From assembly GCF_002813455.1 (NCBI RefSeq), contig NZ_PHHE01000001.1, positions 2,976,001-3,040,000 on the forward strand: DNA of 64,000 nucleotides. The letters run 5' to 3'. Positions 19,116 through 33,963 of the stretch are shown here, one piece after another. The DNA comes from Pseudomonas baetica (GTDB taxonomy: Bacteria; Pseudomonadota; Gammaproteobacteria; Pseudomonadales; Pseudomonadaceae). The translations under genes were made by a program, and so were the position numbers. Positions within the stretch are counted from its first letter, which is position 1, and each line of letters begins with the position of its first letter. The notes under the pieces were generated by a model. It was given only the letters and a program-made list of their open reading frames with translations. It did not search any database and was not told the origin of the DNA.

Positions 19116-19919
19116 TTATGCGGTGTAGCGAGATTTGCCCCAGGCCAGATAGCCTTGCAGCAACTCCTTGAGCACCACCCGCGTTGGCTCGGCCAGATCG
19201 CTGCGGTAGCGGAACGGTTCGAACTCTTCCATGTAGGTGCTCTGGCACAGTTCCAGTTGCACGGCATGGATGTTCTCGGCCGGGTTGCCGTAATGACGGG
19301 TGATGTGACCGCCCTTGAAGCGACCGTTGAGCACATGGCTGTACTCGCCATGACGCGCGCAGATGGCTTCCAGTTGCGTGGCCAGTTGCGGATCGCAGCT
19401 CGCGCCGTTGAAGGTGCCGAGGTTGAAGTCCGGCAGTTTGCCGTCGAACAGGTGCGGGATGATCGAGCGGATCGAGTGCGCGTCGAACAGCAACGCGTAA
19501 CCGAACTCGGCCTTCAGCCGCGCCAGCTCTTCCTGCAAGGTGCGATGGTACGGCGTCCAGATCTGCTCCAGATAAGTCGCGCGCTCATCTTTCGAAGGCT
19601 CCAGACCTTCCTTGAACAACGGGATGCCATCGAACAAAGTCGCGGGATATAGCCCGGTGGTGGCGCCGGCGTACAGCGGCTTGTCGTCGGACGGCCGGTT
19701 CAGGTCGATGACGAAACGCGAGTACTCGGCAGCCAGAGTGCTGGCACCGAGCTCTTCGGCGAAATCGTAGAGCTGCGGAATATGCCAATCAGTATCCGGC
19801 AGGCTTTTCGCATCCGGGATCAGCCCAGCCTCGACCGCAGGCGTCAGGCGCAGACCTGCATGGGGCATGCTGATCAACAGCGGCACGCGCCCTTGTTTGA
19901 AGTTCAGAACCTTATCCAC
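19116..19919 (-). CDS. hutG: N-formylglutamate deformylase
   Basis: Last step of the five-step histidine degradation route: hydrolyses N-formylglutamate to glutamate and formate. 267 residues from a GTG start at 19919, chosen for the strong AGGAGAG site just before it and for the family start (M)DKVLNFKQGRVPLLISMPH. Family marks include 'MPHAGLRLTPAVEAGL', 'LLFDAHSIRSIIPHLFDG' and 'NGRFKGGHITRHYGNP'. It is the last gene of the hutU-to-hutG unit, 10 bp after hutI. Confidence 0.95.
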   Translation of the reverse strand: MDKVLNFKQGRVPLLISMPHAGLRLTPAVEAGLIPDAKSLPDTDWHIPQLYDFAEELGASTLAAEYSRFVIDLNRPSDDKPLYAGATTGLYPATLFDGIPLFKEGLEPSKDERATYLEQIWTPYHRTLQEELARLKAEFGYALLFDAHSIRSIIPHLFDGKLPDFNLGTFNGASCDPQLATQLEAICARHGEYSHVLNGRFKGGHITRHYGNPAENIHAVQLELCQSTYMEEFEPFRYRSDLAEPTRVVLKELLQGYLAWGKSRYTA

Positions 19920-19929
19920 AACCGCTCTC

Positions 19930-21135
19930 CTACAGACTTGATTCAACGCCGTGACGCACGACGCGTTTGTCCAGATCACCGCCGAGCCAATAGGCCAGAT
20001 CCGCAGGACGATCGATATGCCAAGCGACAAAGTCCGCGACCTTGCCGACTTCCAGCGAACCGTGGGTGTCAGCCATGCCCAGCGCCTGCGCGGCATGAAT
20101 GGTCGCGCCGGCCAGCGCCTCTTCCGGGGTCATGCGGAAACAGGTGCAGGCCATGTTCAACATCAGCCGCAACGACAAGGCCGGCGAGGTGCCGGGGTTG
20201 AGGTCGCTGGCGATGGCGATCTTCACCTTGTGCTTGCGCAGGGCGTCCATGGGCGGCAATTGGGTTTCACGCAGGAAGTAGAACGCCCCCGGCAGCAGCA
20301 CCGCGACGGTGTCGGATGCGGCCATGGCGATGGCGTCGGATTCGTCCATGAATTCCAGGTGATCGGCGGACAACGCGTGATACCGCGCAGCCAGGCTGGA
20401 GCCGTGCAGCGAGGACAATTGCTCGGCATGCAGCTTCACCGGCAGACCTAATTCTTTAGCGGTGATGAACACGCGCTCGACCTGCTCCGGCGAGAATGCC
20501 AGGTATTCGCAGAACGCATCCACGGCATCGACCAGACCCTCGGCGGCCAGGGCCGGGAGCATTTCGGCGCAGATGTGATCGATGTAAGCGTCGGCGCGAT
20601 CCTTGTATTCCGGCGGCAACGCGTGAGCGGCGAGACAGGTGCTGCGCACGCTGATCGGCAGCTCTTTGGCCAGGCGACGGATGACCCGAAGGATTTTGCG
20701 TTCGTTGGCCAGATCGAGACCATAGCCGGATTTCATTTCCACCGTGGTCACGCCATCGCGCATCAGGCTTTTCAGACGTTTGGCGGCGCTGGCGAACAGT
20801 TCGTCTTCGCTGGCTTCGCGAGTTGCGCGCACGGTGCTGGCGATGCCGCCGCCCTGCGCCGCGATCTCGGCATAGCTGACGCCTTGCAGACGCTTTTCGA
20901 ATTCGCCGCTGCGGTTGCCGCCGAACACCGTGTGGGTGTGGCAGTCGATCAGGCCCGGGGTGACCCACGCGCCTTGCAGGTCATTGACCGCCGGGTATTC
21001 GCCGGACGGCAGTTGATTACGCGGGCCGATCCACTCGACCAGCGCCCCGGACGTCACGATGGCCGCGTCCTCGATGATCGAGTAGACGCCTTGCGCCATG
21101 GTTGCGACGTGGCAGTGTTGCCAGAGGGTTTTCAT
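19930..21135 (-). CDS. hutI: Imidazolonepropionase
   Basis: Metal-dependent amidohydrolase of 401 residues; converts 4-imidazolone-5-propionate to N-formimino-L-glutamate, third step of histidine degradation. The metal site '[12 protein letters not shown]' is at about 62-73 (His66, His68), with the further family motifs '[18 protein letters not shown]' and '[15 protein letters not shown]'. Same strand as hutH and hutG; a REPIN separates it from hutH. Confidence 0.97.
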
Positions 21136-21235: not shown

Positions 21236-22768
21236 TCACAGGCTAGGCAGCAGGTTCGCCGGAACCAGCTCGGTCAGGCAGCGCGAAGCTAACAACTCGG
21301 TCGCTGCATTGATGTCCGGCGCAAAGAACCGGTCCTTCTCATAGAACGGCACTTCCTGACGCAGAATCGCCCGGGCCTTTTCCAGCTTCGCCGAGGTTTT
21401 CAGGCCGTTACGCAGATCCAGCCCCTGCACCGCCGCCAGCCACTCCACCGCGAGAATCCCGCGCGTGTTCTCGGCCATTTCCCACAGGCGCTTGCCGGCC
21501 GCCGGGGCCATCGACACATGATCTTCCTGGTTGGCCGAAGTCGGCAGGCTGTCCACCGAATGCGGATGGGACAGTGCCTTGTTTTCGCTGGCCAGTGCCG
21601 CCGCAGTCACTTGGGCGATCATGAAGCCGGAGTTGACCCCGCCATTAGCCACCAGGAACGGCGGCAGTTGCGACATGTGCTTGTCCATCATCAGCGAGAT
21701 GCGGCGCTCGCTCAGCGAACCGATTTCGGCGATGGCCAGGGCCATGTTGTCAGCAGCCATGGCCACCGGTTCGGCGTGGAAGTTGCCGCCGGAAATCACA
21801 TCGCCTTCAGCGGCAAACACCAGCGGATTGTCGGAAACGGCGTTGGCTTCAACCGCCAGCACTTCAGCAGCCTGACGAAACTGCGTCAGGCACGCGCCCA
21901 TGACTTGCGGCTGGCAACGCAGCGAGTACGGGTCTTGAACCTTCTCGCAGTTCTGGTGCGAATCGGAGACTTCGCTGCGCTCACCAAGCAGGTCACGGTA
22001 AGCGGCAGCCGCGTCGATCTGGCCTTTCTGGCCGCGAGCGGCGTGAATACGCGCGTCGAACGGCGAGCGCGAGCCCAATACCGCTTCAACCGTCAGACCA
22101 CCCAGTGCAATGGCGCCTGCGAACAGATCTTCGCCTTCGAACAGGCCACGCAGCGCGAACGCAGTAGAAACCTGAGTGCCGTTGAGCAGCGCCAGACCTT
22201 CTTTGGCCGCGAGCGTCAGCGGCGTCAGACCGGCGACTTTCAGTGCCTCGGTGGCTTCCATCCACTCGCCCTTGTAGCGCGCCTTGCCCTCGCCCAGCAG
22301 CACCAACGACATGTGCGCCAGCGGCGCGAGGTCGCCAGAAGCACCCACCGAACCTTTCAGCGGAATGTGCGGGTAGACCTCGGCATTGATCAGCGCGATC
22401 AGCGCGTCGATTACCACACGGCGGATGCCGGAGAAACCACGGCTGAGGCTGTTGACCTTAAGCACCATGATCAGCCGCACCAAGTCATCGCTGATCGGCA
22501 CGCCGACGCCGGCGGCGTGGGACAGCACCAGCGAGCGCTGCAGATTTTCCAGGTCTTCGCTGGCGATGCGGGTCGAGGCCAGCAGGCCGAAACCGGTGTT
22601 GATGCCGTAGGCGGTGCGGTTCTCGGCGAGGATCTGCTCGACGCAGGCGACGCTGGCTTCGATCTGCTGCGATGCGCTGTTGTCGAGCGTCAGCTTGACC
22701 GGGTTCTGGTAGACGTCACGCAGTTGGGCCAGGCTCAGTTGGCCGGGAATCAGGTTCAGCGCAGTCAT
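21236..22768 (-). CDS. hutH: Histidine ammonia-lyase (MIO-containing, catalytic)
   Basis: First enzyme of histidine degradation: removes ammonia from L-histidine to give urocanate. 510 residues. The Ala-Ser-Gly triad that cyclises to the MIO cofactor is present as '[15 protein letters not shown]' (Ala143-Ser144-Gly145). Other active-site segments are intact: '[10 protein letters not shown]' (Tyr54), '[10 protein letters not shown]', '[14 protein letters not shown]' in the form VQDPYSLRC, and 'QEDHVSM'. This is therefore the catalytically competent copy, unlike its neighbour at 22887. Member of the hutU-hutG unit. Confidence 0.97.
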
Positions 22769-22886: not shown

Positions 22887-24410
22887 TCAGTGCAGATTCG
22901 GTAAAACGTTGTACAGCGAATTCGGGTCTTGCAACACGCTCGCGGCGGCGGCGATATCCGGCGCCAGCCAGCGATCCTGGCCGTAGGCCGGGACCTTTTC
23001 GCGCAGCAGTCGCCACGACCGGTCAGTGCCCGCGCCAAAGCGCTGTTCCTTGAGGAACTCAAAGGCCTGCGCCGCCAACAGATATTCGATGGCAAGGATC
23101 TGCGTGCAGTTTTCCAGCGCGCGATGCAGCTTCAGCGCAGCGCTGGTGCCCATGCTCAGATGGTCTTCCTGCAACCCGGAAGTGACGTAGTTGTCGAGCA
23201 CCGCCGGTTGCGCCAATTGGCGGTTTTCCGCACACAGCGACGCGGCGACGTATTGCACGATCATCATCCCGGAGTTCACCCCCGGATTGGCCACCAGAAA
23301 CGCCGGCAGACCGCTGACATGCGGGTTGACCAGACGATCGAGACGACGCTCGGCAATCGAGCCGATTTCCGCCATGGCAATCGCCAACAAATCCGCCGCC
23401 ATCGCCACCGACTGACCGTGCGGGTTGGCCTGCGACATGACCCGGAAATTATCCGGCGTGCCCAACAGTAGCGGGTTATCGGTGCAGCCATTGAGTTCGG
23501 CTTCGACTTGTTTGATTGCATGCTCCAGTTGATCGCGCGCAGCGCCATGCACCTGCGGGATCGAGCGAATGCTCAGCGCATCCTGAGTGCGGATGCCCTT
23601 GCTCGAAGCAATCACTTCACTGCCATCGAGCAACGCACGCAGATTGACCCCAACTTGCTGCATGCCCGGATGCGGTTTCAACGCGATGATCTCGGCGTCG
23701 AACGCATCGATCTGACCGCGCTGGGCTTCAAAACTCATGGCGCCAATGACATCGGCCCATTGCAGCAGACGTGTGGCATCAGCGATGGCCAGACAGCTGA
23801 GGCCGGTCATGCACGGCGTGCCGTTGACCAGGCACAAACCATCCTTCGCGCCGAGTTGCACCGCTTGCAGGCCCTCTTCAGCCAAGGCCTGTTGCGCAGA
23901 AACGATCTGCCCGCGATAGCTGACATTACCCACGCCGAGCAGCGCGATGCCGATGTGCGCCATGTGCGTCAGGTAGCCCACCGAGCCTTGCGACGGCACT
24001 TGTGGAGTGATGCCGCGATTGAGCAACGCCAGCAGCCCTTCGACAACCCGACGATGGAGGCCGGACTTGCCATGGCTGTAGTTGTGGATCGCGGCGCAGA
24101 TGATCGCGCGGGTCTGTTCGTCGGGCAGTGCCGGACCGACGCCGCAGGCGTGGCTGAGCAAGGTGTTGCGCGAGAGCTGGCTGAGTTGTTCATCTTTAAG
24201 CGAAACGTTGGACAACCCGCCCAGACCGGTATTGACGCCATAGGCGCGCTCGCCGCTGACGACAATGCGCTGGACAATGGCCTGGGCGTTTTCGATGCGC
24301 GCCCAGGTGTCGCTCGACAGCTCCAGTTGCGCGCCGTGACGGGCAACGGCGACCACGTACTGCCAACGCAGAGGGCTGCCGGTGATAACGATTTTTTCAG
24401 CCTGGGACAT
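22887..24410 (-). CDS. HutH-family protein lacking the MIO triad
   Basis: Protein of 507 residues clearly of the histidine/aromatic ammonia-lyase family ('RAYGVNTGLGG', 'LVNGTPCMTG', 'SIPQVHGAARDQ', 'GLQEDHLSM'), but where the family has [15 protein letters not shown] it reads 'GSVGYLTHMAHIG' (about 142-154), with the Ala-Ser-Gly missing. The conserved Tyr of 'QDxYSLR' is also replaced ('QDALSIRS'). It thus cannot form MIO in the known way. The frame is intact over the full length, with codon use like its neighbours, arguing against a decayed gene. It sits between hutV and hutH. P. fluorescens SBW25 is known to carry two hutH genes with one sufficient for growth on histidine; this is probably the other. 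Role unknown. Confidence 0.9.
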   Translation of the reverse strand: MSQAEKIVITGSPLRWQYVVAVARHGAQLELSSDTWARIENAQAIVQRIVVSGERAYGVNTGLGGLSNVSLKDEQLSQLSRNTLLSHACGVGPALPDEQTRAIICAAIHNYSHGKSGLHRRVVEGLLALLNRGITPQVPSQGSVGYLTHMAHIGIALLGVGNVSYRGQIVSAQQALAEEGLQAVQLGAKDGLCLVNGTPCMTGLSCLAIADATRLLQWADVIGAMSFEAQRGQIDAFDAEIIALKPHPGMQQVGVNLRALLDGSEVIASSKGIRTQDALSIRSIPQVHGAARDQLEHAIKQVEAELNGCTDNPLLLGTPDNFRVMSQANPHGQSVAMAADLLAIAMAEIGSIAERRLDRLVNPHVSGLPAFLVANPGVNSGMMIVQYVAASLCAENRQLAQPAVLDNYVTSGLQEDHLSMGTSAALKLHRALENCTQILAIEYLLAAQAFEFLKEQRFGAGTDRSWRLLREKVPAYGQDRWLAPDIAAAASVLQDPNSLYNVLPNLH

Positions 24411-24446
24411 CTAAAACCTCAACCGTAATATTGATGCAGCTTCACC

Positions 24447-24524
24447 GGCGCCTTCGCGAGCAAGCCCGCTCCCACATTTGGAATGCGTACCCCCTGTGGG
24501 AGCGAGCCTGCTCGCGAAGGCGCC
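24447..24524. repeat. REPIN-like REP pair, hybrid arms
   Basis: Left arm is of the GGGCTTG subtype, right arm of the GAGCCTG subtype, with a short spacer 'GGAATGCGTACCCCC'. The pairing extends outward (GGCGCCTTCGCGAG / CTCGCGAAGGCGCC). Lies between hutV and the MIO-less hutH-like gene. Confidence 0.9.
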
Positions 24525-24546
24525 GGCCCAGCCAACACAAAACTGC

Positions 24547-25377
24547 CTAAACCACCGCCGCCCGCCGCTGCACGAACCGGTCGACATACTCATCCGCCGG
24601 CGAATGCAGGATCTCTCTTGGCGTGCCGACCTGGATCAGGCGGCCGTCCTTGAGAATCGCAATGCGATTGCCGATACGCACGGCCTCGTCGAGGTCGTGG
24701 GTGATGAAGACGATGGTCTTGTGCAGGGTCTTTTGCAGCTCCAGCAACTGGTCCTGCATCTCGGCGCGGATCAACGGGTCGAGGGCGCTGAACGCTTCGT
24801 CCATGAGGATGATGTCGGTGTCCGCCGCCAATGCACGGGCCAGGCCGACACGCTGACGCATGCCGCCGGACAGCTGATGCGGGTATTTGTTTTCGTAGCC
24901 CTTGAGGCCCACGGTGTTGATCCAGTGCAGCGCGCGTTCGTTGCACATCTGCTTGCTCTCGCCGCGCACTTTCAAGCCGTAGGCGACGTTGTCGAGGACG
25001 GTCTTGTGCGGCAGCAGGCCGAAGCTCTGGAACACCATACTGATCTTGTGCCGGCGAAATTCGCGCAGGGCGTCCATGTCGTATTGCAGGATGTCCACGC
25101 CGTCGACCAGGATCGCGCCGCTGGTCGGGTCGATCAGGCGATTGAAGTGGCGTACCAGCGTCGACTTGCCAGAGCCAGACAGGCCCATGATCACGAAGAT
25201 CTCGCCGGTGCCGATGCTCAGCGACAAGTCGTTGACCCCGACCACACAACCGGTTTCGTTCAGCACCTGATCCTTGGTCTTGCCCTGGCCAACCATGGCC
25301 AAGGCATCCTTGGCGCGGTTGCCGAAAATCTTGAAGACGTTTTTGACTTCGATCTTGCTCACGGTTGCGTTGTTCAT
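24547..25377 (-). CDS. hutV: Histidine ABC transporter ATP-binding protein HutV (ProV-like)
   Basis: ATPase of 276 residues of the glycine-betaine/proline (ProV/OpuAA) class, which powers the HutXWV importer. Walker A 'VIMGLSGSGKSTLVRHFNRL', signature 'QLSGGMRQRVGLARALA', Walker B 'DIILMDEAFSALDPLIR' and His switch 'VFITHDLDEAV' are all present; it lacks the C-terminal CBS pair of ProV. It overlaps hutW by 4 bp. The histidine assignment comes from the hut context and from the described HutXWV system of Sinorhizobium. Confidence 0.9.
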   Translation of the reverse strand: MNNATVSKIEVKNVFKIFGNRAKDALAMVGQGKTKDQVLNETGCVVGVNDLSLSIGTGEIFVIMGLSGSGKSTLVRHFNRLIDPTSGAILVDGVDILQYDMDALREFRRHKISMVFQSFGLLPHKTVLDNVAYGLKVRGESKQMCNERALHWINTVGLKGYENKYPHQLSGGMRQRVGLARALAADTDIILMDEAFSALDPLIRAEMQDQLLELQKTLHKTIVFITHDLDEAVRIGNRIAILKDGRLIQVGTPREILHSPADEYVDRFVQRRAAVV

Positions 25378-26225
25378 TTGCTCACCTCATGCCGTGGCCG
25401 ACCGTACGCCTGAGTGATGCGGTCGATGACCACTGCGAGAATCACGATCGCCAGACCGGCCTCAAGACCCCGTCCGACGTTGAGGGTCTGAATCCCCACC
25501 AGTACGTCTTCACCCAGGCCACGGGCGCCGATCATCGAGGCGATCACCACCATCGACAGGGCCATCATGGTCGTCTGGTTGATCCCGGCCATGATGCTCG
25601 GCAGGGCCAGCGGCAGTTGCACGCCGAACAGCTGCTGCCAGCGGTTGGCACCGAAGGCGTTGATCGCTTCCATCACTTCGCCGTCGACCTGGCGAATACC
25701 CAGATCTGTCAGGCGGATCAGCGGTGGCGCGGCGTAGATAACCGTGGCGAAAATCGCCGGCACCTTGCCCAGGCCGAACAGCATCAGCACCGGGATCAGG
25801 TACACGAAACTCGGCATGGTCTGCATGATGTCGAGCAGCGGCATCAGCACCGAACGCAGGCGATTGCTGCGCGCCGAGAGAATCCCCAGCGGGATGCCGA
25901 TCAGCACCGAAATGATCGTCGCGACCATCATCAGCGCCAGGGTTTGCATGAGTTTGTCCCACAAGCCAACGGCGCCGACGAGGAACAGCAGACCGACGAT
26001 GACTGCCGTGGTCACGACTTTGCGCGTGGCGTGCCAGGCAACCACACCAACGATGGCCAGCATCAACCACCACGGCGCCGCACGCAGCAGGCCTTCGAGG
26101 TTGACGATGGCCCAGAGCAGGGTGTCGGAAATGTGGCGGAACACATCACCGTAGTTGGTGACCAGCGAATCGACCCAACCGTTGACCCAGTCGGCGATGG
26201 AAAAGGTAAAGCTTTCGGGAAACAT
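25374..26225 (-). CDS. hutW: Histidine ABC transporter permease HutW (ProW-like)
   Basis: Membrane permease of 283 residues of the ProW/OpuAB family. An N-terminal segment 'FPESFTFSIADWVNGWVDSL' precedes the membrane domain with 'MQTMPSFVYLIPVLMLFGLG' and the EAA loop 'VMEAINAFGANRWQQLFGVQ'. Start ATG 26225; the end overlaps hutV. A perfect hairpin lies between it and hutX. Confidence 0.9.
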   Translation of the reverse strand: MFPESFTFSIADWVNGWVDSLVTNYGDVFRHISDTLLWAIVNLEGLLRAAPWWLMLAIVGVVAWHATRKVVTTAVIVGLLFLVGAVGLWDKLMQTLALMMVATIISVLIGIPLGILSARSNRLRSVLMPLLDIMQTMPSFVYLIPVLMLFGLGKVPAIFATVIYAAPPLIRLTDLGIRQVDGEVMEAINAFGANRWQQLFGVQLPLALPSIMAGINQTTMMALSMVVIASMIGARGLGEDVLVGIQTLNVGRGLEAGLAIVILAVVIDRITQAYGRPRHEVSK

Positions 26226-26295: not shown

Positions 26296-27264
26296 CTACA
26301 AGGCCGCGTCGATCTTTTTGGCTGCGTCTTCGCTCACCCATGCGTGCCAGACTTCAGGATGTTCCTTGAGGAAGATTTTCGCCAGTTTTGGCGACTCGAT
26401 ACGTTCCTTGGCCATGCGCCCCAGATTCTGGTTCAGCAGGTCGATCGGCAGGTTGACCTTTTCCAGTACGGCGACCAGCTCCGGGGCCTGCTCGTGGAAG
26501 GTCTTGGACAGGCCGACCTTGATCGTCACGGTCTTGTCGACGCCCGGTTTTTCTTCGAGTTTGACCAGATCGACCTGGCCCATCAGCGGGGTTGGCGACC
26601 AGTAGTAGAACAGGATCGGCTCGCCACGCTTGTAGCTCGACAATACCGCCGCATCCAGCGCCGGGCCGGTGCCCGGACGGAAGTTGGTGTAGCTGCTTTC
26701 CAGGCCGTAGCTTTTGAGCATTTCGCTGTTGTCCAGCTCGCAGGTCCAGCCGGCCGGGCAATTGTAGAAACGACCCTTGGAGGGCTCTTCGGCGTCCTTG
26801 AACACGGCAGAGTACTTGGCCAGATCAGCGATGTTTTTCAGATCCGGGGCTTTCGGTTCAAGCTTGCGCTTGGCGTCGCCTTCGATCACGTAACGCGGCA
26901 CGTACCAGCCTTCAACCGCGCCGACGACCGGAGCGCCGACACCGACGACCTTGCCGGCCTTCTCGGCCTTGTTCCAGACCTCGCTGCGGCCAACCCACTC
27001 TTCGGCGAACACTTGAATGTCGTTGCTGCTCAGGGCGTTTTCCATGGTGATGGAGTTGCCCGGCAGGCTGTCGGTCTTGCAGTCATAACCTTTTTCCAGC
27101 ACCACTTGCAGCACGTCGGTCAGCAACATGCCGCTTTCCCAGTTCAGACCGGCGAATTTCACCGGTTTGCCCGATTCGCACCAGCCGGCGGCTTGAGTTG
27201 CGCCAGCGCTGGCCAACAGGCCCATGGACAGCAATGTAGTCAGCAGGGTCTTGTTCGATTTCAT
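26296..27264 (-). CDS. hutX: Histidine ABC transporter substrate-binding protein HutX (ProX-like)
   Basis: Periplasmic binding protein of 322 residues (OpuAC/ProX family). Signal peptide MKSNKTLLTTLLSMGLLASA ending 'ATQAA|GWCESG'. The start at 27264 is chosen over the upstream open frame because it gives this signal sequence. Visible family motifs include 'LNWESGMLLTDVLQVVLEKG', 'IQVFAEEWVGRS' and 'LFYYWSPTPLMG' (aromatic ligand box). First gene of hutXWV, downstream of the NCS1 permease gene. Confidence 0.9.
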   Translation of the reverse strand: MKSNKTLLTTLLSMGLLASAGATQAAGWCESGKPVKFAGLNWESGMLLTDVLQVVLEKGYDCKTDSLPGNSITMENALSSNDIQVFAEEWVGRSEVWNKAEKAGKVVGVGAPVVGAVEGWYVPRYVIEGDAKRKLEPKAPDLKNIADLAKYSAVFKDAEEPSKGRFYNCPAGWTCELDNSEMLKSYGLESSYTNFRPGTGPALDAAVLSSYKRGEPILFYYWSPTPLMGQVDLVKLEEKPGVDKTVTIKVGLSKTFHEQAPELVAVLEKVNLPIDLLNQNLGRMAKERIESPKLAKIFLKEHPEVWHAWVSEDAAKKIDAAL

Positions 27265-27333
27265 TGTTGCGACGCTCCTAATCATGAATTGGCTTACGGC
27301 AGTCAAGAGGCATCCAGCCCTGTCCACGTCCAA

Positions 27334-28806
27334 TCAGGCCTGCGCCGCAGCGCGAGTGGCCCCACTTGTTTTAGGTTGTACAACGCTGTCCTGCCCGACC
27401 GGCAGAATCAGTTGATCGGGCACTGGGCTGTGCCATTTTTTGGCGCACACGTAATACACGGCGGCGGGCAGCACCAGACCGATGATCCAGGAGATATCCA
27501 CATCACCGAGGGCCGCTACCAGGGAACCGGTGTAGAACTTGGTGGAGATGAACGGCAACTGCACCAGCACCCCGAAGACATAGACGCTGATACCGAGCAT
27601 GTTCCAGCGGCCATAGCGACCGTTCGGATTGGCTAGCGCCGGCACGTCATAGCGCTCGCGGGTGATGCAGTAGTAGTCAACCAGATTGATCGCGCTCCAC
27701 GGTGTGAAGAAGGCGAGCAGGAACAGGATGAAAGACTTGAACGCACCGAGGAACGAGTGCTGGCCGAGCAGCGCGATCAGCGTCGCCGCGCCGACGATCA
27801 CCAGCACGAAGACCAGACGCTGCATGCGCGAGACCTGCAGATGACCTTTGAAACCGCTGATGATGGTGGCGATGCACATGAAGCTGCCGTAGGAGTTCAG
27901 CGTCGAGATGGTCACCTTGCCGAATGCGATGCTGAAGTACAGCAGCGCAGCGGTGGCACCGGTTCCGCCCAGACCGACGATGTAGGCCACTTCGTGGCCG
28001 GCGAACTGGCCGTTGGCTGAAGCGGCAGCAAACACACCGAGGATCATCGCCACTTGGGCGCCAATCACCGATCCGGCGCCCGCGGCGAAAAAGGTTTTCA
28101 GCGCCGACGTCTTGCTCGGCAGGTAGCGCGAGTAGTCAGCCACGTAAGGGCCGAAAGCGATCTGCCAAGAGGCCGCAAGCGATACCGCCAGCAGGAAGCT
28201 GCTCCAGCTGAAATGGCGGATTTGCAGGAGTGCGCCGACGTCGGTCTGGCTCATCAGACGCCAAAACAGGAAAACGAAGGCAATCACGCCAATGACGCTG
28301 GCGACGCGGCCAATCCAGTGGATGACCCGATAACCCATCACGGTGACCAGCACGATGACACTGGCGAAAATCAGAATCCCGATGCTGTCGCTGACGCCAA
28401 ACAACTGGCCCAGCGCCTGGCCGGAAAGCACCGTGCCCGTTGCGGTGAAGCCCAGGTACATCAGGCACACCAACACGATCGGGATGGCTGCGCCATAAAC
28501 GCCGAACTGCACGCGGCTGGAAATCATCTGCGGCAGACCCAGTTTCGGCCCTTGCGCCGCATGCAGCGCCATCACGCCGCCGCCCAGCAGTTGACCGATC
28601 AACAGACCGATCAACGACCAGAACACATCACCGCCCAGCACCACGGCCAATGCCCCGGTGACAATCGCGGTGATTTGCAGGTTGGCACCCATCCACAAGG
28701 TGAATTGGCTGAACAGACGACCGTGTCTTTCCGCTTCCGGGATGTAGTCGATCGAACGCCTTTCGATCAACGGTTTGTTGCCTGCACGATCGGGACTGAC
28801 AGCCAT
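27334..28806 (-). CDS. NCS1-family permease, probable urocanate or histidine transporter
   Basis: Integral membrane protein of 490 residues of the purine-cytosine permease (CodB/NCS1) family, with about 12 hydrophobic segments. N-terminal 'RSIDYIPEAERHGRLFSQFT' and 'FTLWMGANLQITAIVTGAL' are typical, as is 'FGPYVADYSRYLP' in the middle. Position right after hutU in the same unit, as in P. fluorescens hut loci where a CodB-like protein was linked to urocanate uptake, supports that substrate. The ATG at 28806 is preceded by an AGAGG site. Confidence 0.88.
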   Translation of the reverse strand: MAVSPDRAGNKPLIERRSIDYIPEAERHGRLFSQFTLWMGANLQITAIVTGALAVVLGGDVFWSLIGLLIGQLLGGGVMALHAAQGPKLGLPQMISSRVQFGVYGAAIPIVLVCLMYLGFTATGTVLSGQALGQLFGVSDSIGILIFASVIVLVTVMGYRVIHWIGRVASVIGVIAFVFLFWRLMSQTDVGALLQIRHFSWSSFLLAVSLAASWQIAFGPYVADYSRYLPSKTSALKTFFAAGAGSVIGAQVAMILGVFAAASANGQFAGHEVAYIVGLGGTGATAALLYFSIAFGKVTISTLNSYGSFMCIATIISGFKGHLQVSRMQRLVFVLVIVGAATLIALLGQHSFLGAFKSFILFLLAFFTPWSAINLVDYYCITRERYDVPALANPNGRYGRWNMLGISVYVFGVLVQLPFISTKFYTGSLVAALGDVDISWIIGLVLPAAVYYVCAKKWHSPVPDQLILPVGQDSVVQPKTSGATRAAAQA

Positions 28807-28980: not shown

Positions 28981-30681
28981 TTATTTGCCGGTAATCATCG
29001 GCAGGTTCAGACCCTGCTCCTTGGCGCAATCGATGGCGATCTGGTAACCGGCATCGGCGTGACGCATGACCCCAGTGGCCGGGTCGTTGTGCAGGACACG
29101 GGCGATTCGCTCGGCCGCTTCGTCGGTACCGTCGCACACGATCACCATGCCCGAGTGCTGGGAGAAGCCCATGCCGACGCCGCCGCCGTGGTGCAGGGAC
29201 ACCCAGGTCGCGCCGCTCGCGGTATTGAGCAGAGCGTTGAGCAGTGGCCAGTCGGACACAGCGTCGGACCCGTCCTGCATCGATTCGGTTTCGCGGTTCG
29301 GGCTGGCGACCGAGCCGGAGTCGAGGTGGTCACGACCGATCACGATCGGCGCCGACAGCTCGCCGCTGCGGACCATTTCGTTGAATGCCAGACCGAGCTT
29401 GGCGCGCAGGCCCAGACCGACCCAGCAGATACGCGCCGGCAGACCCTGGAAGCTGATGCGCTCGCGGGCCATGTCCAGCCAGTTGTGCAGGTGCGCGTCG
29501 TCCGGGATCAGTTCTTTGACCTTGGCGTCGGTTTTGTAGATGTCTTGTGGATCACCCGACAGCGCCGCCCAACGGAACGGGCCGATGCCACGGCAGAACA
29601 GCGGACGGATATAGGCCGGTACGAAGCCTGGGAAGTCGAATGCGTTTTCGACGCCTTCTTCCTGCGCCATCTGACGGATGTTGTTGCCGTAGTCGAAAGT
29701 CGGGATACCTTGCTTCTGGAATTCCAGCATCGCTTTGACGTGCACGGCCATCGACTGCTTGGCAGCCTTGATCACAGCGGCCGGTTCGGTCTTGGCGCGG
29801 GCGCGGTATTCGTCCCAGGTCCAGCCGGCCGGCAGGTAGCCGTTGAGTGGGTCGTGGGCGCTGGTCTGGTCGGTGACCATGTCCGGGCGTACGCCGCGCT
29901 TGACCAGTTCCGGCAGGATTTCCGCAGCGTTGCCCAGCAACGCGATGGAGATCGCTTTGCCTTCTTTGGTGTACTTGGCGATACGCGCCAGGGCGTCGTC
30001 GAGGTCGGTGGCTTGCTCATCGACGTAACGGCTTTTCAGGCGGAAATCGATGCTGACCTGCTGGCATTCGATGTTCAGCGAGCAAGCACCGGCCAGGGTC
30101 GCGGCCAGAGGCTGAGCGCCACCCATGCCGCCCAGACCGGCGGTCAGGACCCACTTGCCGGTGAGGTTGTCGTTGTAGTGCTGACGGCCGGCCTCAACGA
30201 AGGTTTCGTAGGTGCCCTGGACGATGCCCTGGCTGCCGATGTAGATCCAGCTGCCGGCGGTCATTTGGCCGTACATGGCCAAGCCTTTGGCGTCGAGTTC
30301 GTTGAAGTGTTCCCAGCTCGCCCAATGCGGCACCAGATTGGAGTTGGCGATCAGTACGCGCGGGGCGTTGCTGTGGGTCTTGAACACGCCGACCGGCTTG
30401 CCGGATTGCACCAGCAGGGTCTCGTCGTCATTCAGGTTGGTCAGGCTCTCGACGATTTTGTCGTAGCACTCCCAGTTACGCGCGGCACGCCCAATACCGC
30501 CGTAGACCACCAGCTCTTTCGGGTTCTCGGCGACTTCCGGATCAAGGTTGTTCATCAGCATGCGCAGCGGCGCTTCGGTCAGCCAGCTCTTGGCGGTCAG
30601 CTTGTTGCCGCGTGCGGCACGGATTTCGACGTCGCGATGCTTTGTAAATGTAGTAGCAGTGGTCATCTTGTTGTCAGTCAC
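28981..30681 (-). CDS. hutU: Urocanate hydratase
   Basis: Second step of histidine degradation: adds water to urocanate to give 4-imidazolone-5-propionate, with tightly bound NAD. 566 residues; '[20 protein letters not shown]', '[20 protein letters not shown]' (NAD loop) and '[18 protein letters not shown]' are family hallmarks. I take the GTG at 30681, with GAGGAG 8 bases before it; an ATG five codons in is an alternative. 'ACAACAAGA' right after the start resembles an Hfq/Crc catabolite-control motif, a weak observation. First gene of the operon. Confidence 0.97.
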
Positions 30682-30813: not shown

Positions 30814-30827
30814 CTTGTACATACAAG
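30814..30827 (-). promoter_or_regulatory. HutC operator candidate at the hutU start site
   Basis: Perfect 6-2-6 palindrome, CTTGTATGTACAAG on the minus strand, the form I remember for the Pseudomonas hut operator. It begins 5 bases after the -12 element of the sigma-54 promoter, so it covers the expected transcription start near 30821. Confidence 0.82.
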
Positions 30828-31742: not shown

Positions 31743-32492
31743 CTATTTATGGAACCGACCTTCCAGACGATGACGGGAACCGGGGTGAATCAGGCGCGCA
31801 GCGGTCACCGGCTGACGGCCCGACCACGTGCGACGGCGGATCAGCAGGCATGGCTCGCCCTTTTCGATCTGCAGCAACTTGCACTCGGACGCTTCAGCGA
31901 GGATCGCTTCGACCACATGCTCGCCCTCAGTCAGCGGCGCCACCTGGTTGAGGTAGGCGTAAGGCGTTTGCAGGGTGAAGTCCTGCTTGAGGTATTCCGG
32001 GGCCACCAGCGCGTTGACGAAACGGTCTTCGATTTGCACCGCAATGTCGTTTTCGTAATGCACGATCAGCGAGTGAAAAACCTTTTGCCCTTCGCGCATG
32101 TCCAGCGCCAACGCGCGTTCGGAGCCGGCGGCCTCTTCTTCGAGGGTAATGACCTGGCAGGTGTGGCGATGACCGCGCGAGGCGATTTCGTCGGCGATGT
32201 TGTGCACCTCGAACAACGCAGACTGGCTCTTCGGCTCGGCGACGAACGTGCCGACGCCTTGCATGCGCACCAGCAGACCGTCGGCAGTCATCTCGCGCAG
32301 GGCGCGGTTGATGGTCATGCGGCTGAAACCGAGCTGATTGACCAGTTCACTTTCCGACGGCACGCGGTAGTGCGGCGGCCAGTTACCACTGTCGATCTGC
32401 TGGGTGATCATCTGTTTGACGCGGGCGTACAAGGGCGCCGGACTGTCGCCCATGTTCGCGGCCAACGGGGAAACTGGAGGCGGAGTCGGCAC
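31743..32492 (-). CDS. hutC: Histidine utilization repressor HutC (GntR family)
   Basis: Transcriptional repressor of 249 residues, released by urocanate. A winged-helix N-terminus about 20-85 ('RVPSESELVNQLGFSRMTIN', the GntR helix-turn-helix) is followed by a UTRA ligand domain (about 105-240). I chose the GTG at 32492 (AAGGATCC before it); ATG 32453 (MGDSPAPLYARVKQ) is the alternative. The open frame upstream to 32816 is overlap with hutF on the other strand. Its operator-like palindromes lie in the hutC-hutF gap and before hutU, consistent with control of the whole locus including itself. Confidence 0.94.
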   Translation of the reverse strand: MPTPPPVSPLAANMGDSPAPLYARVKQMITQQIDSGNWPPHYRVPSESELVNQLGFSRMTINRALREMTADGLLVRMQGVGTFVAEPKSQSALFEVHNIADEIASRGHRHTCQVITLEEEAAGSERALALDMREGQKVFHSLIVHYENDIAVQIEDRFVNALVAPEYLKQDFTLQTPYAYLNQVAPLTEGEHVVEAILAEASECKLLQIEKGEPCLLIRRRTWSGRQPVTAARLIHPGSRHRLEGRFHK

Positions 32493-32562
32493 GGTGGATC
32501 CTTGTTCGTCGGTAGAGGTTGCTAGCTTGCCGGAGTTTACCGGGCAGGCAAACGTCTGTATA

Positions 32563-32572
32563 TGTATATACA
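32563..32572. promoter_or_regulatory. HutC operator candidate in the hutC-hutF gap
   Basis: Perfect palindrome TGTATATACA, preceded by a partly overlapping TGTATATG (32557-32564), in the 106-bp gap between the divergent hutC and hutF starts. It shares TGTA..TACA with the hutU operator. Confidence 0.72.
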
Positions 32573-32598
32573 AATAACACACGATGGGGTGCTGAACC

Positions 32599-33963
32599 AT
32601 GTCCGCCTTCTTTGCCGAACGCGCGCTGCTGCCTAACGGATGGGCCAATAATGTACGTCTTGAGGTCAGCGCCGATGGCCTGCTGACCCAGATCCAGGCC
32701 GATTCCACCGCAGATGGCGCCGAACGGCTGAGCGGTCCGTTGCTGCCGGGGATGCCCAATCTGCACTCCCACGCCTTCCAGCGCGCGATGGCCGGGCTGG
32801 CCGAAGTGGCTGGCAATCCGAACGACAGTTTCTGGACGTGGCGCGATCTGATGTATCGGCTCGTCGGAAAAATCAGCCCGGATCAACTTGGCGTCATCGC
32901 CCGACAGCTGTACATCGAGATGCTCAAGGCTGGTTATACCTCGGTTGCCGAATTCCACTATGTGCATCACGACACTAACGGTCAGCCTTATGCCGATCCG
33001 GCTGAACTGGCGTTGCGCATCAGTCAGGCTGCCAGCGAAAGCGGCATCGGTTTGACCCTGCTGCCGGTGCTCTACAGCCACTCTGGTTTCGGCGGGCAGA
33101 CGCCCAATGATGGCCAGCGCCGTTTTATCAACAGCACCGAAAACTACCTCAATCTGCAATCACGCTTGCAGCCGCTGCTGGCGCAGCAGAAGGCGCAATC
33201 GCTGGGCCTGTGTTTCCACTCGTTGCGCGCGGTCACCCCGCAGCAAATCAGCGAAGTACTGGCCGCCAGCGACAAACAATGCCCAGTGCACATTCACATC
33301 GCCGAACAGCAGAAGGAAGTCGATGACTGCCTGACCTGGAGCGGTCGTCGGCCGCTGCAATGGCTGTACGAAAACACCGAAGTCGATCAGCGCTGGTGCC
33401 TCGTTCACGCCACCCACGCCAACCCGGAAGAAGTCACGCTGATGGCAAAGAGTGGCGCCATCGCCGGCCTGTGCCTGACCACCGAGGCGAACCTCGGCGA
33501 CGGGATTTTCCCGGCGGTGGATTTCCTCGCTCAGGGCGGACGCATGGGCATCGGTTCCGACAGCCATGTGTCACTCAGTGTGGTGGAAGAATTGCGCTGG
33601 CTGGAATACGGCCAGCGCCTGCGCGATCAGCGACGCAACCGTTTGTATGGCGCCGATCAGCCGATGGTCGGGCGCACGCTGTATGACGCGGCGCTGGACG
33701 GCGGCGCGCAGGCGTTGGGGCAGCCGATCGGGGCGCTGGAAGTCGGCAAGCGTGCGGACTGGATTGTGCTTGATGGCAACGATCCGTATCTGGCAACGGC
33801 CAGCGGCGACGGGATTTTGAATCGCTGGTTGTTTGCCGGCGGCGATCGTCAGGTTCGCGATGTGCTGGTCAATGGCCAGTGGGTGGTGCGTGATGGCCGG
33901 CATGCCGGCGAAGAACAAAGCAATCGCGCCTTCACCCAAGTCCTGCGTGAACTTCTGGGCTGA
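32599..33963 (+). CDS. hutF: Formimidoylglutamate deiminase
   Basis: Amidohydrolase of 454 residues that turns N-formimino-L-glutamate into N-formyl-L-glutamate and ammonia, feeding HutG. The pair hutF plus hutG defines the five-step route used by pseudomonads. The metal site 'LPGMPNLHSHAFQRAMAG' lies near residues 49-66; 'HIHIAEQQKEVDDC' and 'GIGSDSHVSLSVVEELRWLE' carry further ligands. Transcribed divergently from hutC. Confidence 0.96.
   Translation: MSAFFAERALLPNGWANNVRLEVSADGLLTQIQADSTADGAERLSGPLLPGMPNLHSHAFQRAMAGLAEVAGNPNDSFWTWRDLMYRLVGKISPDQLGVIARQLYIEMLKAGYTSVAEFHYVHHDTNGQPYADPAELALRISQAASESGIGLTLLPVLYSHSGFGGQTPNDGQRRFINSTENYLNLQSRLQPLLAQQKAQSLGLCFHSLRAVTPQQISEVLAASDKQCPVHIHIAEQQKEVDDCLTWSGRRPLQWLYENTEVDQRWCLVHATHANPEEVTLMAKSGAIAGLCLTTEANLGDGIFPAVDFLAQGGRMGIGSDSHVSLSVVEELRWLEYGQRLRDQRRNRLYGADQPMVGRTLYDAALDGGAQALGQPIGALEVGKRADWIVLDGNDPYLATASGDGILNRWLFAGGDRQVRDVLVNGQWVVRDGRHAGEEQSNRAFTQVLRELLG

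Follow-up and report, generated by a model that had tools for sequence, protein, structure and literature searches.

Gene content of the hut operon

The window, that is, the whole stretch of 64,000 nucleotides of Pseudomonas baetica DNA that we analyzed, contains an operon for histidine degradation in which two genes of the HutH family lie side by side (Table 1). One is a canonical hutH. The other, P0001, is an intact frame with an ATG start, spanned throughout by PF00221 (547.8 bits, E 2.5e-164); no second domain was found in its 507 residues with Pfam. Its score of 532.5 bits against the NCBIfam hutH equivalog TIGR01225 is below the cut-off of 539.15, and the sole hutH-type cut-off that it passes is that of the broader subfamily PRK09367 (551.9 bits; cut-off 524). 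The protein, referred to below as the lyase, is 39% identical to the adjacent HutH over 477 aligned columns. The single urocanase of the operon is of the canonical type: against the thiourocanate and S-methyl-thiourocanate hydratase models, it scores 708.1 and 689.0 bits, both below the respective cut-off.

Table 1. Genes and sequence features of the hut region, with positions in the window.
Feature	Position	Strand	Remarks
hutG, N-formylglutamate deformylase	19116..20096	minus	match begins at residue 63; frame therefore carries an N-terminal extension
hutI, imidazolonepropionase	19930..21135	minus	
Canonical HutH	21236..22768	minus	GSVGASGD, QDPYSLR
MIO-less HutH-family lyase (P0001)	22887..24410	minus	507 aa, PF00221; putative hercynine trimethylamine-lyase
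QDALSIR, lyase residues 276-282	23565..23585	minus	Leu279 for HAL Tyr280; Gln276 and Arg282 retained
Loop GSVGYLTHMAH, lyase residues 142-152	23955..23987	minus	at the MIO-forming ASG site of HutH
hutV, ABC ATPase	24547..25377	minus	adjoins the lyase on its 5' side; matches TIGR01186 (betaine/proline/choline type) at 370.5 bits, cut-off 326.6
hutW, permease	25374..26225	minus	closest to the choline ABC permease, with 292.6 bits, below the cut-off of 363
hutX, OpuAC substrate-binding protein	26296..27333	minus	PF04069 208.1 bits; below NCBIfam ProX and choline-binding cut-offs
NCS1-family permease	27334..28806	minus	PF02133
hutU, canonical urocanate hydratase	28981..30681	minus	TIGR01228 1021.2 bits
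HutC-like palindrome TTGTACATACAA	30815..30826		upstream of hutU
hutC, repressor	31743..32816	minus	match begins at residue 124-130; true start therefore later
hutF, formimidoylglutamate deiminase	32599..33963	plus	

The palindrome upstream of hutU was named by what we take to be the HutC-box consensus; allowing up to two mismatches, boxes of this kind occur in the window at 30815 and 32562 (shuffle mean 0.4 per window). Visual inspection of the 136 bases that separate hutV from the lyase (24411-24546) showed a REP-like inverted repeat, gcgagcaggctcgctcccac, together with its mirror gggagcgggcttgctcgcgaag.

An active site without the MIO cofactor

When aligned to the adjacent HutH, the loop of the lyase, GSVGYLTHMAHIG, has Y in place of ASGD (GSVG-Y---LTHMAH), so that the MIO tripeptide is absent and the net deletion is three residues. 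The motif QDPYSLR of HutH is QDALSIR in the lyase, with Leu at the equivalent of Tyr280, and the site of HAL Phe329 is occupied by Pro (NFHAE in HutH, NPHGQ in the lyase). The equivalents of Tyr53, His83, Asn195, Gln277, Arg283 and Glu414 of HAL are all retained; these positions are named by HAL residue numbers and roles that we presume to be correct. The alignment confirms three statements of the original prediction, namely that the Ala-Ser-Gly cofactor triad is gone, that the Tyr of QDxYSLR is replaced by Leu, and that the 507-residue frame is intact beside a normal hutH.

The altered loop is a constant feature of the lyase. The pattern GS[VAIL]GY[LI] is present in all of the nearest 120 homologues (out of 7336 significant matches), in 83/83 Pseudomonas orthologues and in 80/80 named loci of the genome collection, the latter being the best 80 of at least 585 confirmed loci and all showing the narrower form GS[VA]GYL. 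By comparison, GASGD is found in none of the 120 homologues and none of the 83 orthologues; all 67 HutH proteins encoded at these Pseudomonas loci have it. Leu279 and Pro330 accompany the loop in every one of the 120 homologues, and the 83 Pseudomonas orthologues, our own genome not counted, are identical at all twelve positions checked. Because the loop is common to all homologues, orthologues and loci that were checked, its loss of MIO is neither chance nor a sequencing error. In both sets, the catalytic residues other than the equivalents of MIO, Tyr280 and Phe329 are invariant, which supports the earlier suggestion of an enzyme with other chemistry.

Distribution and phylogeny

An orthologue of at least 58% identity was identified in 84 of 119 Pseudomonas genomes, including our own. 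At the phylum level, a protein search with the lyase matched 23/398 genomes at E <= 1e-116. The corresponding search at the class level matched 14/369 genomes at E <= 1e-100; twelve of these matches are MIO-bearing HutH proteins, and the remainder are our own genome and one other. A motif search at the class level matched our own genome alone (1/274). Named members of the clade come from Erwinia, Burkholderia, Paraburkholderia, Rhizobium, Agrobacterium and Sinorhizobium meliloti, with Priestia as a more distant member.

In a tree of 55 rows, calculated with the columns of the loop, Tyr280 and Phe329 left out, all 36 MIO-less rows fall on one branch (support 95/95; 96% of bootstrap trees) that spans proteobacteria and Bacillota. 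The window protein belongs to a subclade of 30 rows with a support of 100/100. Because the outgroup (L003) and one other row (L121) have very long branches, we only infer the place of the latter and the direction of change. The Tyr280 site is Leu in the MIO-less rows, with the exception of L093 and L094, in which it is Tyr.

Several further lyases of the family were seen on the way. Loci L091-L094 represent another MIO-less type of Pseudomonas (GSVGYLAVEGHL) that retains Tyr280 and Phe329; the L093 gene adjoins a LysR regulator and an SBP_3-type ABC transporter. Two Pseudomonas genomes (L038:1003-7031 and L039:3566-9606) encode a second MIO-less type with GSVGYISHMAH and QDPLSLR. Its neighbors in L039 are an enolase-superfamily protein, a GbcA-like Rieske oxygenase (585.7 bits, below the cut-off of 670), an Ldh_2 dehydrogenase and a reductase; in L038, the Rieske gene alone was confirmed beside the lyase (91%). 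The lyases of L121:6992-8497 and L261, located near betaine-type ABC genes, have GS[IL]GAAD in the MIO loop and QDPLSYR, and constitute a third way of losing MIO. A Klebsiella plasmid cluster (L119:1461-11334) combines a canonical HutU, hutF and OpuC-type ABC genes with an MIO-less lyase (GSVGYLIATAH); nothing else in the fetched 15 kb is annotated as HutH. Finally, our own genome has a third PF00221 gene (L003; 2910267-2914664), with the MIO triad and QDRYSLR, whose best NCBIfam match, the BagA/FevW tyrosine ammonia-lyase, gives 420.7 bits, far under the cut-off of 1000.

Linkage to transporters of the betaine type

Gene neighborhoods were compared in the 54 of 84 Pseudomonas orthologue loci with enough flanking sequence (L035-L037 and L040-L090). 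The nearest panel gene 5' of the lyase is on the same strand in all 54, and in 51/51 of the loci L040-L090 it is hutV; with L037 counted in, the gap between the ATPase match and the lyase measures 12-220 bases. At L035 and L036, the 5' position is taken by a betaine/carnitine/choline carrier of the BCCT family, with PF02028 scores of 386 and 388 bits; at L037 it is taken by an ATPase from a different ABC system, one whose binding protein is of the SBP_3 type. A BCCT gene also stands beside the lyase at two loci (L115, L215) from a different family within the order. The constant neighbor of the lyase is therefore a transporter, not hutH. Some link to histidine use remains, since hutH is found within the fetched flanks of 36/51 loci. 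Neither hutH nor hutU is found in the fetched flanks of 8/51 loci, six of which (L057-L061, L063) are bare hutX-hutW-hutV-lyase cassettes within the fetched 12 kb, with hutH elsewhere in the genome. Four of the 51 loci (L050-L052, L077) have hutW and hutV but no match to hutX. The idea that proteins with this loop form a conserved clade linked to hut genes was borne out, the link to transporters being tighter than that to hut. With up to two mismatches allowed, no HutC-like box was found in the six cassettes or at L036, L041, L062 and L118, so induction by urocanate has no box support at these loci.

Of the 119 Pseudomonas genomes, 77 have both the lyase and a HutX of 74% identity or more, 7 have only the lyase, 1 has only HutX and 34 have neither of them (Fisher p 1e-21, a value that ignores phylogeny). 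One genome, G043, has a HutX orthologue (84%) and no HutH-family match to the lyase at E <= 1e-20. The DMSP-binding pocket of DmpX is described as an aromatic cage in PMC10030565, and we compared HutX with it. The four Trp of the cage and its Tyr are all retained in the window HutX (W65, W113, W196, W245 and Y243), in addition to E141; Ser94 and Thr197 stand for Thr64 and Ala153 of DmpX.

Quaternary-amine uptake genes are also linked to the lyase in some other genera. Among the named loci (best 80 of at least 585), hutXWV-like genes are found upstream in 15; 53 pair with an amino acid ABC system of the SBP_3 type, and the remaining 12 have no system of either kind. As 65 of the 80 are without a quaternary-amine system of the panel, a strict rule is weakened outside Pseudomonas.

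Relation to HAL, ergothionase and the second HutH of other bacteria

The HAL of P. putida (1b8f; TIGR01225) shares with the lyase its fold and the Tyr53/His83/Asn195/Gln277/Arg283/Glu414 set, but has the ASG-derived MIO, Tyr280 and Phe329, all of which the lyase is without (Phe329 being replaced by Pro). The second reference is ergothionase, an MIO-free relative that eliminates trimethylamine, as described in PMC13405746. In view of that enzyme, the claim that the locus harbors undescribed biochemistry was too strong. Ergothionase of T. denticola (PDB 6s7j/6s7q) is 28% identical to the window lyase and has in common with it a HAL fold without MIO. Its loop, however, is SSIGEGD (SSIGEGDITTLSHIG) rather than GSVGY, and MIO loss may therefore have been a separate event there. 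The two also differ in substrate, which is thiolated in ergothionase (ergothioneine) and proposed to be hercynine for the window lyase, and in context: the ergothionase-type operon with thiourocanate hydratase and ErtD is absent around the window lyase, where the urocanase is the canonical HutU.

A sequence search of the PDB ranked HAL above ergothionase (E 3.5e-95 versus 4e-66), and so did a profile search and a search with L035. Foldseek with a monomer model gave the same order. Fold comparison of the monomer model was non-discriminating, with Z scores of 46.9 for 7tqr, 46.1 for 3kdz_A, 45.1 for ergothionase and 45.0 for HAL; an active site of the HAL type needs several chains. Judged by overall sequence, the window lyase is nearer to HAL than to ergothionase. 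Because HAL ranks higher, the likeness to ergothionase rests on the missing cofactor and the context, not on overall similarity. We class the window lyase neither as HutH nor as ergothionase proper.

A comparable arrangement occurs in S. meliloti at locus L142, the hutXWV-hutH2 operon, which is said to be a histidine/betaine system with a putative histidase and reportedly has a role in histidine uptake and growth, a role that counts against the hercynine reading given below. Its hutH2 product is MIO-less. Like the window, L142 has an OpuA-type ABC system followed by a GSVGYL lyase; unlike the window lyase, the protein falls in a subclade with Ala330/Val331. A search of titles and abstract openings in the open-licence literature found neither a hercynine lyase nor the GY-loop MIO-less clade reported. 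Ergothionase is already known; in the literature searched, we did not find the second HutH described as a cofactor-free clade tied to betaine uptake.

A putative hercynine lyase

On the strength of these sequence features and gene contexts, the lyase is probably an MIO-free trimethylamine-lyase of the HutH fold that converts hercynine to urocanate and trimethylamine and thereby supplies HutU. Also in favor of this reading are the ergothioneine-type operon around a relative of the same subclade in A. tumefaciens, the G772 genome with its lyase, BCCT and hutU genes but no canonical HutH (both described below), the GbcA-like Rieske gene beside the lyases of L038 and L039, and the solA-like oxidases near some of the named relatives. 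We infer its reaction, substrate and induction loop as follows. Hercynine (N,N,N-trimethylhistidine, the betaine of histidine) would be imported by HutXWV, with the aromatic cage of HutX, or by a BCCT carrier. The retained HAL pocket would hold its carboxylate and imidazole, and Tyr57, the base of the Tyr53 type, would take the beta proton. Trimethylamine would then depart without MIO in a reaction modeled on that of ergothionase. The ammonium group of histidine is a poor leaving group for which MIO is needed; trimethylammonium may leave without it, and MIO could therefore be lost while the base and the substrate-holding residues stayed. The resulting urocanate would be degraded by the ordinary HutU of the operon and would also relieve repression by HutC, inducing the operon.

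The same chemistry might be directed at another imidazole betaine or N-methylated histidine, such as ergothioneine, S-methyl-ergothioneine or dimethylhistidine. What speaks for another substrate is a lyase on the pAt plasmid of A. tumefaciens (L118/L270), which is 44% identical to the window lyase and belongs to the same 100/100 subclade. Its operon is of the S-methyl-ergothioneine type, with an S-methyl-thiourocanate hydratase (975.8 bits, cut-off 880), ErtD (782.8 bits, cut-off 600) and ErtE (576.1 bits, cut-off 520); a betaine ABC transporter is directly upstream of the lyase, and no other gene in the displayed 16 kb is annotated as HutH-like. Such a pathway presumably requires the elimination of trimethylamine from an ergothioneine derivative. 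The two lyases share the GSVGYL loop and Leu279, but differ at the Phe329 site (AHAVG on pAt, ANPHG in the window) and in the urocanase partner, which is a dedicated one on pAt and HutU in the window. In 14 of the 80 named loci (best 80 of at least 585), the lyase is accompanied on its own strand by a solA-like oxidase of N-methyl amino acids, which would also fit such a substrate.

Against this stands the distribution of the ergothioneine genes in Pseudomonas: ErtD is above its cut-off in 4/119 genomes, compared with 84 for the lyase. In one of the four, G044, thiourocanate hydratase (1023.2 bits, cut-off 930) and ErtD (693.4 bits, cut-off 600) are accompanied by a separate lyase that is not of the GY type and has a GEGD loop resembling the SSIGEGD of T. 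denticola ergothionase. Lyase type and urocanase type go together in these two cases, pAt and G044, but not generally. At the ErtD locus of two further genomes (L268:2785-9142 and L269), an MIO-bearing HutH (52%) stands with ErtD and a divergent urocanase 46% identical to HutU, a set that perhaps serves a thiolated free histidine; in G085, the 14 kb around ErtD contain no urocanase or HutH-like gene. Our own genome has one urocanase, the canonical HutU of the window, and no ErtD above the cut-off of 600 (best 188.9 bits). The canonical HutU, its being the only urocanase and the missing ErtD favor hercynine over ergothioneine, and hercynine is indicated because its product is plain urocanate, the substrate of HutU. 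We therefore regard a different substrate as unlikely.

Other roles of the lyase

We tested 19 genomes that carry the lyase for a HutH with 50% identity or more and found one in 18 of them (in G080 in two pieces, one with a stop). The exception is G772, a draft of about 30 contigs rated 100% complete, from which the absence of HutH is read. Its genes are arranged hutI-lyase-BCCT-hutU, and hutF is also present. Of the three PF00221 genes of G772, one encodes the GY lyase and another a GSLGAADL lyase next to the gene of an OpuC-like binding protein; the product of the third has MIO and the motif QDRYSLR and is also found in our own genome (L003). Urocanate in G772 probably comes from the GY lyase. 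Since it is the only HutH-like gene among the hut genes there, it could in principle be an MIO-free histidase that eliminates ammonia from histidine by another mechanism; the adjoining BCCT and OpuAC transporters, however, point to a quaternary amine, and with a canonical HutH in 18 of the 19 genomes this reading appears very improbable.

The original prediction had also offered a regulatory partner in mixed tetramers or a binder of histidine or urocanate, neither of which is supported. A non-catalytic subunit would fit the common fold of lyase and HutH and the hutH genes in the flanks of 36 of the 51 Pseudomonas loci, but it is at odds with the invariant catalytic residues and with the cassettes located away from hutH; a subunit dependent on HutH is further disfavored because G772 has the lyase without a canonical HutH. 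We rejected it as highly unlikely. A sensor or binding protein is consistent with the retained pocket residues and with a gene encoded in the operon, but is barely plausible and was likewise rejected: HutC is already in the operon, the 507-residue frame has no other domain, and a binder would hardly need a catalytic set that is invariant throughout.

The median pairwise omega is 0.110 for the lyase and 0.059 for hutH (same 66 genomes; 2127/2145 pairs), so the lyase is under purifying selection, somewhat weaker than that on hutH. None of the 84 listed Pseudomonas orthologues has an internal stop, and decay in most relatives is thus not observed. We give virtually no credence to a decaying hutH duplicate and rejected a relic: the second hutH of P. 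fluorescens SBW25 has reportedly been called nonfunctional and omega is somewhat above that of hutH, but a value of 0.11, frames free of stops, invariant residues and a branch of its own common to distant genera argue against it.

Implications

On balance, we lean towards a wider picture in which the hercynine lyase would be part of a radiation of MIO-free HutH-fold lyases (GY, GEGD and GAAD types), each matched to its importer and urocanase: hercynine would be handled by GY lyases paired with HutU, other GY lyases would be paired with S-methyl-thiourocanate hydratase, and GEGD lyases with thiourocanate hydratase. The window gene would represent the hercynine branch, a very common and undescribed entry to histidine degradation that in Pseudomonas and rhizobia goes under the annotation of a second histidase.

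Hercynine is made by fungi and actinobacteria, and its presence in soil is plausible. If the hercynine reading is correct, soil bacteria would be able to convert hercynine to glutamate and trimethylamine, and many genes labeled histidine ammonia-lyase would encode proteins that cannot deaminate histidine and degrade the betaine of histidine instead. This would account for the widespread second HutH, including the one of Pseudomonas said to be nonfunctional, as well as for the betaine-type transporter inside hut operons. The family would then offer a natural experiment in the loss of an enzyme cofactor once the leaving group becomes easy.
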